Positions 6,711-27,972 of a DNA stretch of 34,656 nucleotides are shown piece by piece. The notes beneath the pieces are model-generated. The model saw nothing but the letters and a program-made list of their open reading frames with translations, was not told the origin of the DNA and did no database searches. Each line of letters starts with the position of its first letter. Position 1 is the first letter of the stretch. The position numbers and the translations under genes were made by a program. The stretch spans positions 1 through 34,656 of the forward strand of contig CAJWVY010000014.1 of NCBI GenBank assembly GCA_913048135.1. The letters are read 5' to 3'. Source of the stretch: an uncultured Verrucomicrobiales bacterium. Lineage in GTDB: Bacteria > Verrucomicrobiota > Verrucomicrobiia > Limisphaerales > UBA1100.

Positions 6711-7097
6711 ACCTTGGAAGGGTGGAGGATCGCTTTCGTTTTATGACGGGAGAGGAAAGTCCGAACACCACAGGACGCGATGCTGCGTAACCTCGGTTCC
6801 GCCGGGGATACATGCAGGCGGCGGTTTCGGAAGGAACCGTCGACGGACAGTGCCACAGAAAACAAACCGCCCCGGTTCGCCGGAGCAAGGGTGAAAAGGT
6901 GGGGTAAGAGCCCACCGCGCCACGCGCAAGCAAGGCGGCACGGTAAACCCCATCGGGTGCAAGGCCAAATAGGGGGCCAGGGACGGTCCGTCCCGCGATC
7001 GGAAACGATCACGGCTCCGGGTAGGGTCGCAACAGATAAATGATCCTCTCCACCGCGTGCGGTGTAGACAAAATTCGGCTTACAACCCTTCCAAGGT
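6711..7097 (+). ncRNA. rnpB: RNase P RNA, bacterial type A
   Basis: Catalytic RNA of ribonuclease P, which removes 5' leaders from pre-tRNA. The conserved landmarks occur in order: GAGGAAAGTCCG (6752-6763), CACAGAAAACAAACCGCC (6854-6871), GTGAAAAGGTGGGGTAAGAG (from 6891), GGCACGGTAAACCCC (from 6937), GGTGCAAGGCCAAATAGG (from 6956), AGATAAATGATC (7034-7045) and ATTCGGCTTACA near the 3' end. The termini are fixed by a perfect 13-bp P1 helix: ACCTTGGAAGGGT (6711-6723) pairs with ACCCTTCCAAGGT (7085-7097). The length of about 387 nt is normal for type A. No T-tract terminator follows. The DUF1501 start codon is only 20 bases further, so read-through or processing of a joint transcript is possible. 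Confidence 0.97.
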
Positions 7098-7117
7098 GCT
7101 TTATAGTAGGAGGAGCA

Positions 7118-23845: not shown

Positions 23846-24811
23846 ATGGCAACCGGCTTTGCCCTCGCGAAAAGGGTGTTTTTGTGCGATATTTTTCCAG
23901 TGAGGAGGTTTTTTCGGATTAGTCTAATGACTTGGATCGGCTTGTGCTGTGCTGTCAATGTTGAGGCGCAACTCCTTGATATTCGGCTCAAGACAGGCCG
24001 CAATAATTTCCTCCTTCAGGAACGCGTGATTGTGGGGGTCACGATTCAAAATAAGACGGATCAATTGGCTGTACTGGCGAATGATAAGGATTGGATTCAA
24101 TTTTCGGTAAGTCGAGCAAGAGGTGTTCCGGTTACGAGAAAGGGGCAACCTCCTGAAGGGGAAGTGTACTTGTTGAAGGCTGGAGAGACTGTGGAGCGTG
24201 AATTTCAGCTGGATCCATACTTCGATTTTTCAGAACCGGGTGAATATTCACTTAGAGCGGTGGTGGCCGTTCCCAATTGGGATGGGAAAAAGATTGTCAG
24301 CTGGCCGACGCGGATCCAGATAACGCGTGGTCACGATATTGCAATTCTTGAACGTGGGGTTTCATCGTCTACGGGCGGTGCTGCGCCTGAAGTTAGACGA
24401 TACACTTTGCAGAAGGCACAGGTGGAAGGGAAGCTGTTTCTGTATTTGCGGGTGGCGGATAACAACACCCCGAGTTTTCGGGTGTACAATGTCTTACCGT
24501 TGGGGACGATGGTGCAATCTCCTCGTCCTGAGATTGGATTTGAAATCGATGCTGCAGGTATTGCGCACGTTTTCTTCCAATGTCATGCGCGTCATTACTT
24601 GTATTGCACCATGAATGCGGATGGTAAACTGATTGGCCGGCAGATGTTTGTAAGTGATACAATTGCAGGGACCCCTAGAATGGCACGGGATGTGAGAGGC
24701 CAATTTGGCGTGCAGGGTGGTCACCGGAAATTGAGTGCTTGGGATCATCCAGCCCCCCGGCGTCGGCCACGCGGTTTGCCGGCCAAGGAATTGGGATTGC
24801 CGAATCCTTAA
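23846..24811 (+). CDS. Secreted protein of unknown function
   Basis: Up to 321 residues; I do not recognise the family. A signal peptide ends at NVEA before QLLDIRLKTG. From ATG 23846 it would have an unusually long 27-residue lead-in; the GTG at 23900 (RRFFRISLMTWIGLCC) gives a cleaner signal and may be the true start, and ATG 23927 is a third option. The mature part has a beta-rich domain (about residues 42-160: LQERVIVGVTIQNKT, FDFSEPGEYSLRAVV) that resembles immunoglobulin-like or DUF4198-like extracellular folds. A second beta-rich part follows, then a basic Pro/Arg-rich tail. The base composition looks more AT-rich than its neighbours. It begins 8 bases after the GT9 stop, and its own stop overlaps that of the convergent gene. 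Confidence 0.75.
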   Translation: MATGFALAKRVFLCDIFPVRRFFRISLMTWIGLCCAVNVEAQLLDIRLKTGRNNFLLQERVIVGVTIQNKTDQLAVLANDKDWIQFSVSRARGVPVTRKGQPPEGEVYLLKAGETVEREFQLDPYFDFSEPGEYSLRAVVAVPNWDGKKIVSWPTRIQITRGHDIAILERGVSSSTGGAAPEVRRYTLQKAQVEGKLFLYLRVADNNTPSFRVYNVLPLGTMVQSPRPEIGFEIDAAGIAHVFFQCHARHYLYCTMNADGKLIGRQMFVSDTIAGTPRMARDVRGQFGVQGGHRKLSAWDHPAPRRRPRGLPAKELGLPNP

Positions 24812-25881
24812 GGTGACTTCTTCTCCCGTCCTGCATCAAATAAATCACCTTCCGGGGCCGCGGCTAGGATTTGTTTGGCGATATTATTGCCGTAGGCGAG
24901 ATCCTTGCGCTGGGTGGATGCCACGCGGCTGCTCAGGCGCATTCGGGCGGCGCCAATGATGTTGTTGTTCCGATCCTTCACCGGTACGGTGACGGTGCTG
25001 ATCCCGTCTTTTTGTCCGTGGAAATTTTCCTCCGTTTCCAAAACCTTGGTCACGACTTCATGGGCTGGCTGGCCAATATCCTTGGGCTCGAGGCTGGCAA
25101 TCACCACAGGGGGTTTTTGGGCGGCTGGCCGTGCGGAGAGTTTGAGGGAAAGGACGCGGTTGTTTTCGCGGGCGATTTGTTTGAGAAGGGCGACGAGTTG
25201 ATACTGCCTTTCCTCCTTTAGGGTGCGAATGACGGGGGCGGCGAATTGTACGCGTGAATCGCTGCGCACCCAAAAGCCAACCATGCCGCGGCGGTAATCA
25301 GGAGTGGTTTCCGGGTTGTAGGTAATGAAATCTCGGCGATGGTTCAGGGTCCAGCGGGAGGTGTTTTCTTCAGCCTGTAGTTTGATGGATTGCCAGCCGT
25401 CCTTGGGGGAAATGAACTGGTCCTCGTCGTACTTGAATCCTTTCACCGGAAGTCCATCCTGAAACACCGTCCAGAAAGCCTCCTTGGTCTCGGGTTTCAC
25501 GGCGAGTAGGTAATAGTCTTTTTGGTTGGGCTGCATTCTGAAGATGACGCCTGCGGCCCGGACGCCTTCGCCGTCCACGATGCGGAAGCGCGTGGCGATG
25601 GAAAGGCTGCTGTAAGCCGGTTGGTCTAGGAGCACCAGTGTGTAGTGGTCGGCGGCGGCACCGCCGCCGGTGATCTCTAGGACGCGTTGTTTTTCGGTAA
25701 CACCAGTGGTGGGATGGGGGACGTTTTCCGTGGTGACACGCACTTTGCCCAAGGCACCGGGGCCGACCTTAATGACCTTCAGGTTGGCGGGCAGTTTGCC
25801 TTCGGGCAATTGTTCCAGCAACAGCGGGTTGGCGTCGGCTTGCATCAAGCCGATAAACAGAATCCACAGGAGCGACCTCAT
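24808..25881 (-). CDS. Secreted protein with lectin-like and Cache-like parts, unknown function
   Basis: 357 residues with a signal peptide (MRSLLWILFIGLMQADA). The middle (about residues 70-220) resembles a concanavalin/LamG-like or 3-keto-disaccharide-hydrolase-like beta sandwich: YSSLSIATRFRIVDGEG, VIFRMQPNQKDYYLLAV, WQSIKLQAEENTSRWTLNH, MVGFWVRSDSRVQF. The C-terminal part (about 275-340, GISTVTVPVKDRNNNIIGAA) recalls the last strands of Cache/PDC sensor domains. No transmembrane helix follows, so it is probably periplasmic. The ATG lies 6 bases after the ilvB stop, so it is likely co-transcribed with ilvB and under its attenuator, an odd partner where ilvN would be expected. Domain calls are by eye and tentative. 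Confidence 0.78.
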   Translation of the reverse strand: MRSLLWILFIGLMQADANPLLLEQLPEGKLPANLKVIKVGPGALGKVRVTTENVPHPTTGVTEKQRVLEITGGGAAADHYTLVLLDQPAYSSLSIATRFRIVDGEGVRAAGVIFRMQPNQKDYYLLAVKPETKEAFWTVFQDGLPVKGFKYDEDQFISPKDGWQSIKLQAEENTSRWTLNHRRDFITYNPETTPDYRRGMVGFWVRSDSRVQFAAPVIRTLKEERQYQLVALLKQIARENNRVLSLKLSARPAAQKPPVVIASLEPKDIGQPAHEVVTKVLETEENFHGQKDGISTVTVPVKDRNNNIIGAARMRLSSRVASTQRKDLAYGNNIAKQILAAAPEGDLFDAGREKKSP

Positions 25882-25887
25882 CGCGCG

Positions 25888-27753
25888 CTAGTAAATCATA
25901 TCCGCCACCGTATGGCCAGCGGGGATGAAGGGGAGCACGTGTTCGGTGTAGGGGGTGATGACTTCCAGCACGTAAGGTTCCTTGGCCGCGAGCATGCGGC
26001 GCATGGCGGCAGGGAGATCCTTTTTGTACATCACCCGCTCGCATTTCACGCCGAACCCGGCGCACATGGCGGGGTAATCGGGGTAAATGGCCTTGGTGTT
26101 GTCCGGGTCGCCCAGATAGGTGTGGCCGCGGTTGCCCTTGTAGAATCGATCCTCCCACTGCACCACCATGCCGAGGTGCTGGTTGTTTAACACCAACGCC
26201 TTGGCGTTGATCTTCTCGATCTTGGCGGTGGCGAGTTCCTGAATGTTCATCAGGAAGGAGCCGTCACCGTCGATGTCGATCACTTCCTTGTTTGGGTGGG
26301 CGACCTTCACGCCGAGGGCGGCCGGGTAGCCGAAGCCCATGGCGCCGAGGCCGGCACTGGTGATGAGCTGGCGCGGGTGTTTGTACACGTAATGTTGGCC
26401 GGCCCACATCTGGTGCTGGCCCACGCCGGTGGTGATGAGGGCGTCGCCTTTGCTTTCCTTGAACAGGGTGGCAATTGCGTGTTGCGGCAGGATCACCTGG
26501 TCTTCTTTGCCCTTGAGGTGATCCTTCATGTGCATGGAATTCATCACCTCGTCGGTGACTTCGTAGCCGAGCGGGGCGCGTTGTTTCCATTCGGCGATCT
26601 GCTTGTGCCACTTTGTGTAGCGGGCCTTGATCGGGCGGGCTTTGACCATCTTGACCAGTTTGCCGAGGGCGTATTTCACATCGCTGTGGATGGGCAGCTG
26701 CACGTGTTTGTTCTTGTTGTGCTCGGAGCGGTCGAGATCCACGTGCACGATGGTGCCGGTCTCGCAGAATTTCTCCACCTTGCCGGTCACGCGGTCATCA
26801 AACCGCACGCCAAAGGCGAGCAGGAGATCGGCGCCGTCGGCGATCTTGCGGGTGTTGCCCTTGGCGTCCTTGCGGAGTTCGCCGCTGACAGCCCAGTTCG
26901 CGTAGGCGGCGCCGTGCATGCCCAGCCAGCGCAGGGAAAGTTTATGATCCTCGGGGAAAGCGCCCACGCCCATGATGGTTGTGGTGACGGGAATCTTGGT
27001 GGCCTCGGAAAAGGCGCGCAGTTCCTTGGAGGCTTCGCCGGTGATGATGCCGCCGCCGACATAGAGCACTGGGCGCTCGGCTTTCTCGATCAGACCGATG
27101 ATTTCGTTCAGCTCCAGATCGTCCGCTTTCGGGTCAGGTCGGTAGCCGGGCAGATCAATTTTGGTGGGCCACACCGGTTGGGCGGTTTGTTGCTGAATGT
27201 TTTTCGGAAAATCAATAACCACCGGACCGGGCCGGCCGGTTTGAGCAATGTGAAAAGCTTCCTTCACCACGCGCGGAATATCGCGGATATCGGTGATCAG
27301 ATAGCTGTGTTTCACGACACCGAGGGTCATGCCGTAGAAATCGGTTTCCTGGAACGCGCCCTTGCCTATCATCGCCTGCGGGACTTGGCCGGTGAGTGCG
27401 ACGAGTGGTGTGCTGTCCATCCACGCATCAGCAATGCCGGTTACGAGGTTGGTGGCGCCGGGGCCGCTGGTGGCCATGCACACGCCGGCTTTGCCGGTGG
27501 CGCGGGCGTAGCCCTCGGCGGCAAATGAACCGCCTTGTTCGTGCCGGGGCAGAATGGTGCGGATTTTCTCAGACTGCGTGAGGGCTTGATGGAGCTCCAT
27601 GCTGGCACCGCCTGGGTAGGCGAAAATCGTGTCCACGTTTTCGCGCTCGAGCGCGGCCACAAGGATTTCGCAACCCTTCATGGGGCGGCCGAGTTTGCGA
27701 CGGGTGGCGGTCTTGGGTTTGCTCTTGCTGCTTTTGCGGGTGGGTTTGCTCAT
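25888..27753 (-). CDS. ilvB: Acetolactate synthase, large (catalytic) subunit
   Basis: TPP-dependent enzyme forming acetolactate or acetohydroxybutyrate, the first common step of valine, leucine and isoleucine synthesis. 621 residues. The catalytic Glu72 lies in [27 protein letters not shown] and [16 protein letters not shown] precede and follow, and the TPP/Mg site [15 protein letters not shown] starts near residue 494. A Lys/Arg/Ser-rich extension of about 24 residues precedes the usual family start (MKGCEIL); ATG 27753 is used, but 27681 is an alternative. The frame is open back to 27972, through the leader-peptide region, which is not coding for this protein. No small regulatory subunit gene follows. 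Expression should be controlled by the attenuator upstream. Confidence 0.95.
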
Positions 27754-27796: not shown

Positions 27797-27836
27797 AAAG
27801 AAAAAGACCCACGACCGTTTCCAGCCGCGGGTCTTT
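27797..27836 (-). terminator. Intrinsic terminator (attenuator) in the ilvB leader
   Basis: In the minus-strand RNA, AAAGACCC (27836-27829) pairs with GGGTCTTT (27810-27803). Inside this, seven more pairs (GCGGCTG with CGGTCGT, three of them G-U) close a GAAA tetraloop. The 15-bp hairpin overlaps and continues into TTTTTCTTT (27805-27797). It lies between the leader-peptide stop and the ilvB ATG, the position of a transcription attenuator. Confidence 0.9.
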
Positions 27837-27905
27837 GTCGAAAGTCATCTAGCCTCGACACGACCCGGCGGCACCGGCAAGTACTACAGGTACTACCGTG
27901 ACGCC
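27824..27905 (-). promoter_or_regulatory. Alternative pause and antiterminator hairpins of the ilvB attenuator
   Basis: Region 1 is GGCGTCACGG (27905-27896, leader codons 10-13). It can pair with CCGGTGCCGCC (27877-27867) with one mismatch and one bulge: the pause hairpin. Region 2, GCCGCCGGGTC (27872-27862), can instead pair with region 3, GACCCGCGGC (27833-27824), as 10 bp with a single bulged C: the antiterminator. Region 3 is also part of the 5' arm of the terminator, so the 1:2, 2:3 and 3:4 structures exclude one another. A ribosome stalled on the Val codons would leave region 2 free for region 3. Pairings were found by eye, not by folding software. Confidence 0.8.
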
Positions 27906-27932
27906 AAGGGTTTGTACGGGCAAATTCAACAT
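27849..27932 (-). CDS. ilvL: Branched-chain amino-acid leader peptide of ilvB
   Basis: A 27-codon reading frame from ATG 27932 to TAG at 27851-27849. It starts M-L-N-L-P-V and contains six Val and four Leu codons, including the run Val-Val-Pro-Val-Val-Leu at residues 13-18; there is no Ile. Five of six Val codons are GTA, which I judge uncommon in the surrounding GC-rich genes and would sharpen the response to charged tRNA(Val). It has no Shine-Dalgarno and starts about 5 bases after the predicted transcription start. Function by analogy with IlvL/IvbL: ribosome stalling during Val or Leu shortage prevents terminator formation. The symbol is used by analogy of role, not by homology. Confidence 0.85.
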
Positions 27933-27943
27933 GTTCGGCGGAG

Positions 27944-27972
27944 CTTGTAGCAGGAAACGCCGATCGGGTCAA
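27944..27972 (-). promoter_or_regulatory. Promoter of the ilv leader and ilvB
   Basis: Minus-strand TTGACC (27972-27967), 17-base spacer, TACAAG (27949-27944). The -35 box overlaps the nhaD stop codon. The expected start site, about 27937, is 5 bases before the leader-peptide ATG. Confidence 0.6.

Follow-up and report, generated by a model that had tools for sequence, protein, structure and literature searches.

A predicted leaderless valine attenuator before ilvB, and a leucine counterpart before leuA, in an order of Verrucomicrobiota

The enteric ivbL and ilvGMEDA leaders have a Shine-Dalgarno sequence and a 5' UTR, and their branched-chain control codons act within a 1:2, 2:3, 3:4 logic. 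Leaders of related design precede ilvB in other bacteria. The Corynebacterium ilvBNC attenuator, or ilvB-II motif, consists of a leader ORF with branched-chain codons before ilvB together with a terminator, an antiterminator and an anti-antiterminator (PMC10272879, PMC11857589). In C. glutamicum, the leader before ilvBNC has 15 codons (MTIIRLVVVTARRLP; PMC10272879, PMC11857589), and transcription starts one nucleotide from its start codon (PMC11857589). In the Mycobacterium tuberculosis ilvB1NC attenuator, GUA is the regulatory codon of a branched-chain uORF, and a terminator and an antiterminator are present as well (PMC13236596). The ilvB-OMG and Leptospira ilvB motifs also lie before ilvB and include a branched-chain-rich uORF, and attenuation has been proposed for them (re-examined in PMC10272879).

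Here we analyse a region upstream of ilvB in an uncultured Verrucomicrobiales bacterium, within a window (the whole stretch of DNA analysed) of 34,656 nucleotides. This region very probably holds a ribosome-mediated transcription attenuator of the his/trp/ilv type that would couple ilvB to charged tRNA-Val, and probably also to tRNA-Leu. A first-pass annotation had proposed a Val/Leu attenuator at this position, a reading supported by framed Val codons, exclusive helices, fixed spacing and a twin before leuA. The sequence features that define the class are present (Table 1): a run of end-product codons, an intrinsic terminator before the first gene, and an antiterminator that excludes the terminator and whose 5' strand falls late in the leader ORF.

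The locus has the 1:2, 2:3, 3:4 logic and branched-chain control codons of the enteric leaders but, unlike them, is predicted to be leaderless. It resembles the Corynebacterium ilvBNC attenuator in its branched-chain leader ORF and its rival folds, and from its predicted start would also resemble it in having no ribosome binding site, yet differs in phylum and sequence, in leaders that are usually 22-28 codons long and whose C terminus, encoded by strand 2, is conserved, and in having ilvN elsewhere rather than beside ilvB. The branched-chain uORF with its GUA codon, the terminator and the antiterminator recall M. tuberculosis ilvB1NC, which is however actinobacterial, has LVVI as its control stretch and governs a three-gene operon (PMC13236596). 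With the ilvB-OMG and Leptospira ilvB motifs it has in common the position before ilvB and a branched-chain-rich uORF, although the uORFs of those motifs are also Thr-rich (PMC10272879) and there is no Rfam match here. Judged by its sequence, the attenuator is of the classical ribosome-mediated type and, as far as the literature was searched, new for the phylum. That search, which left most subscription journals outside its scope, found no such leader described in Verrucomicrobia and, within this incomplete coverage, agrees with the first-pass annotation, whose author knew of none.

Table 1. Features of the predicted ilvB attenuator (window coordinates)
Feature	Position	Strand	Basis
nhaD	end at 27969	-	same strand as ilvB, just upstream of leader region
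-35 box of leader promoter, TTGACC	27967..27972	-	sequence; conservation in relatives
-10 box, TACAAG	27944..27949	-	17-nt spacer from -35 box; sequence; conservation
Predicted transcription start	27937	-	inferred from promoter position, ~7 nt past -10 box; 5' UTR ~5 nt
Leader ORF, 27 codons, ATG 27932 to TAG 27851-27849	27849..27932	-	sequence; kept in 83/88 upstream regions
Hairpin 1:2, anti-antiterminator / possible pause hairpin, sequesters strand 2	27867..27905	-	MFE fold
Control codons GTA GTA CCT GTA GTA CTT (VVPVVL), residues 13-18	27879..27896	-	sequence; Val peak in relatives
Strand 2 of antiterminator, GCCGCCGGGTC plus TGTCGA, within leader codons 21-26	27855..27872	-	sequence; fold
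Strand 3, TCGACA plus GACCCGCGGC, common to 2:3 and 3:4	27824..27841	-	sequence; compensatory changes with strand 2
Intrinsic terminator, 15-bp stem closed by a GAAA loop	27803..27836	-	terminator scan; conserved with covariation
Terminator T-tract, TTTTT	27801..27805	-	sequence
ilvB, acetohydroxyacid synthase large subunit, regulated gene	25888..27753	-	ATG at 27753; above TIGR00118 cut-off

Relatives of IlvB were drawn from its protein family and from GTDB genomes, including Limisphaerales, Pedosphaera and Verrucomicrobia subdivision 3. Promoter, leader and terminator precede ilvB in 83 of 88 distinct upstream regions. Two of the five exceptions are interrupted by contig ends (L046, L093), one has a leader rich in Val and a terminator whose T-tract is broken (L089), one looks degenerate (L062) and one is without the attenuator (L068). 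In the genome under study, IlvB is the only protein to exceed the TIGR00118 cut-off, and a sequence search for further copies of the attenuator returned only the ilvB copy with a good score. The ilvN gene neighbours an apparent ilvC on a different contig, and the region upstream of ilvN holds no such attenuator leader.

The -35 box overlaps the stop codon of nhaD, and 11 nt separate the -10 box from the leader ATG. The promoter, the 27-codon leader with VVPVVL at residues 13-18 and the predominance of GTA among its Val codons (5/6) are as the first-pass annotation had described them, the nhaD-ilvB gap alone requiring correction from 216 to 215 bases. This promoter was not among the sites listed by a generic sigma-70 scan; its support comes from conservation among relatives, in which TTGA begins 34-42 nt ahead of the leader's start codon (80/83), the spacer is 17 nt (65/83) and 'TA' occupies positions 1-2 of the -10 box (77/83). 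The promoter position predicts a leader 5' UTR of 0-7 nt in 80 of the 83 relatives, and the leader mRNA is thus predicted to be leaderless. This would account for the apparent lack of a Shine-Dalgarno sequence remarked on in the first-pass annotation, the core of which is present in only 3 of 83 leaders. Certain members of the Verrucomicrobia have been assigned to a class with few Shine-Dalgarno interactions (PMC10783764).

Conservation of the leader is framed by codons. GTN makes up 25.1% of frame 0 in the leaders, vs 6.8% and 1.9% of the two alternative frames, the Val content of ilvB leaders is 25-28%, and Val peaks between 14 and 10 codons ahead of the stop. GTA accounts for 38% of Val codons across all relatives' leaders; in the window's 26 longest non-overlapping ORFs its share is 8.7%. 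The start codon is ATG in 75/83 leaders, and all three stop types (TAA, TAG, TGA) occur. These patterns point to a coding sequence with conserved Val codons, which would be translated, although the leader's upstream portion shows only a mildly low pN/pS (0.60).

The fold of 27940-27795 has a free energy of -62.5 kcal/mol (z = -4.5), and none of 200 shuffles was as stable. Within this region, the stretch of Val codons is base-paired in hairpin 1:2 to the beginning of strand 2; action of this hairpin as a pause signal is plausible. The antiterminator pairing of GCCGCCGGGTC with GACCCGCGGC, which the first-pass annotation had proposed, is present with one bulge and extends into a second stacked stem, TGTCGA/TCGACA, that it had not included. 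The antiterminator 2:3, folded without strand 4, reaches -28.0 kcal/mol and the terminator 3:4 reaches -25.4 kcal/mol; with strand 3 common to both, the two folds are mutually exclusive. The exclusivity claimed earlier was thus found, and is conserved in relatives, as was the 15-bp terminator with its GAAA loop and T-tract (27836-27801). Taken alone, the terminator scan proves little, with three terminator-like sites in 1.5 kb vs 2.0 expected in shuffles; the stem at 27836-27803 is by far the longest of the three.

Comparative evidence bears on each helix. Compared with synonymous shuffles, stability is higher for the 2:3 duplex in all 83 leaders and for hairpin 1:2 in 77 of them. Since the folds exclude one another, RNAalifold on the whole alignment shows the terminator only, and antiterminator pairs were therefore counted separately. 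Eight of 16 antiterminator pairs have changes on both sides, with 29 double-change cells vs 13.2 in shuffles that keep the relatedness of the sequences; 77% of cells are paired in the gapped alignment, in which many individual cells are unpaired, vs 33-52% when slid, a control that partly removes relatedness. For the terminator, compensatory changes affect 3 of 14 pairs (14 double-change cells vs 3.4 shuffled) and 96% of cells are paired. The spacing from stop codon to strand 3 is 22 nt in 52 of the 83 leaders and 21-23 nt in 72. The first-pass annotation had suggested aligning relatives for Val/Leu codon runs and covarying stems, and both proved to be conserved.

We infer the transcription start, leader translation, stalling, read-through and valine response from the arrangement of these elements. 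Judging from the promoter, RNA polymerase would begin some 5 nt ahead of the leader ATG, and ribosomes would bind directly at the leaderless 5' end. Given sufficient Val-tRNA, the translating ribosome would reach the stop codon and, strand 2 being leader codons 21-26, would cover it (27872-27855), leaving the 3:4 terminator to end transcription after roughly 135-140 nt. When Val-tRNA is scarce, the ribosome would stall on the GTA codons and melt hairpin 1:2, thus freeing strand 2 to pair with strand 3 as the antiterminator and allowing the polymerase to read into ilvB; by our placement of the ribosome, stalling on codons 13-17 would mostly leave strand 2 free. Were the leader not translated, 1:2 and 3:4 would both form and the terminator would win.

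It is conceivable that the attenuator acts in trans as well, through the terminated RNA (~135-140 nt) or the 27-residue peptide on other targets. A stable short RNA is predicted and the C terminus of the leader (C-R) is conserved among relatives, but conservation of the C-terminal codons is accounted for by the pairing of strand 2, and we regard such additional action as very improbable.

The reading as a translation-coupled attenuator gains further support from leuA. A second attenuator of like layout precedes leuA in the same genome (contig 33; L195, about 1300-1450), arranged as TTGACC-17-TAACAA-6-GTG with the leader VRNGLNLPLQRALLLGSRAVGV, a terminator of -23.5 kcal/mol and an antiterminator of -24.3 kcal/mol. 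Across the order, 26 of 30 regions upstream of leuA keep it. A scan of both genes with no amino-acid criterion gave leuA leaders with 29.6% Leu and 5.7% Val and ilvB leaders with 27.6% Val and 8.9% Leu; reverse-complement and shuffle controls gave no matches. By this measure the leader codons follow the pathway, Val before ilvB and Leu before leuA. The trpE and hisG upstream regions were also examined and hold no such attenuator.

This codon-framed swap weighs against direct sensing of uncharged tRNA-Val or of a metabolite by a T-box or riboswitch, in which the ORF would be untranslated. The region is indeed structured and precedes a biosynthetic gene, but there is little room for an aptamer between the start and the terminator, and an Rfam covariance-model search found no T-box, riboswitch or other leader family above its gathering score; the sole leader family listed, Thr_leader, scored 17 bits vs a cut-off of 55. 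Lacking an Rfam match, this candidate was rejected, and we give it hardly any credence.

A leader-peptide attenuator before ilvB is widespread within the order. In an order-wide sample of about 50 genera, scanned with no amino-acid criterion, it was found in 46 of 51 ilvB upstream regions, with leaders of 27.0% Val and 8.8% Leu. A strict scan for TTGAC, leader and terminator matched 71 of 86 ilvB upstream regions, none of the 86 reverse complements and nothing in ten rounds of shuffles. That the hairpin is a mere terminator of nhaD, preceded by a Val-rich ORF by chance, would fit the end of nhaD on the same strand just upstream, but this joint recurrence of promoter, ORF and terminator, the position of the promoter between nhaD and the hairpin, and the finding of nhaD upstream only in the closest relatives' loci (L001-L007, L013, L018-L021), with the attenuator staying before ilvB elsewhere, led us to dismiss it as exceedingly unlikely: the attenuator travels with ilvB, not with nhaD.

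The attenuator before ilvB is absent from 27 regions of other families and orders of the class (L135-L161; ilvB 54-69% identical), one of which (L160) has a hairpin with no leader match. Its distribution is thus not phylum-wide. In a separate branch of the phylum (ilvB identity 43-47%), branched-chain-rich leader ORFs such as MNKKSLVAAIVPEQAVLVVVLLTGRCASRP, followed by a terminator, precede ilvB in 8 of 12 regions (L182, L184-L190), and in 7 of the 8 the strict scan places TTGAC at leaderless spacing. Either shared ancestry or convergence may explain these distant attenuators. Weak model matches across the phylum were rejected as mostly ordinary terminators; three exceptions precede divergent ilvB and look real (L107, L123, L126).

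It seems likely that an order of Verrucomicrobiota runs branched-chain synthesis by paired attenuators with leaderless leaders, Val for ilvB and Leu for leuA, that a second branch of the phylum uses the same design before a distant ilvB, and that starting translation at the 5' end is the standard means of ribosome-polymerase coupling in these Shine-Dalgarno-free leaders. This would extend classical translation-coupled attenuation to Verrucomicrobiota, across an order. The leaderless layout makes it testable whether a ribosome initiating 0-7 nt from the 5' end can keep up with the polymerase, and the ilvB/leuA pair represents a natural Val-to-Leu codon swap in one genome. Furthermore, the ilvB and leuA leaders provide a large alignment for building Rfam families and for annotating unrecognised leader peptides.

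Some additional observations concern the leaders and the surrounding window. Leaders of ilvB (window 27872-27852), of leuA and of the distant branch often carry A-V-G or A-A-G near their end, which fits the pairing of strand 2 with the terminator strand CCCAC/CCCCAC. Immediately after ilvB, and in the same orientation, lies a gene for a 357-aa protein with no significant Pfam match (window 24808-25881, minus strand); relatives of this protein, with identity down to 23%, are found downstream of ilvB in 42 related loci, and it is possibly an operon partner of ilvB. The window also contains a bacterial class A RNase P RNA at 6714-7098 on the plus strand (229.6 bits).
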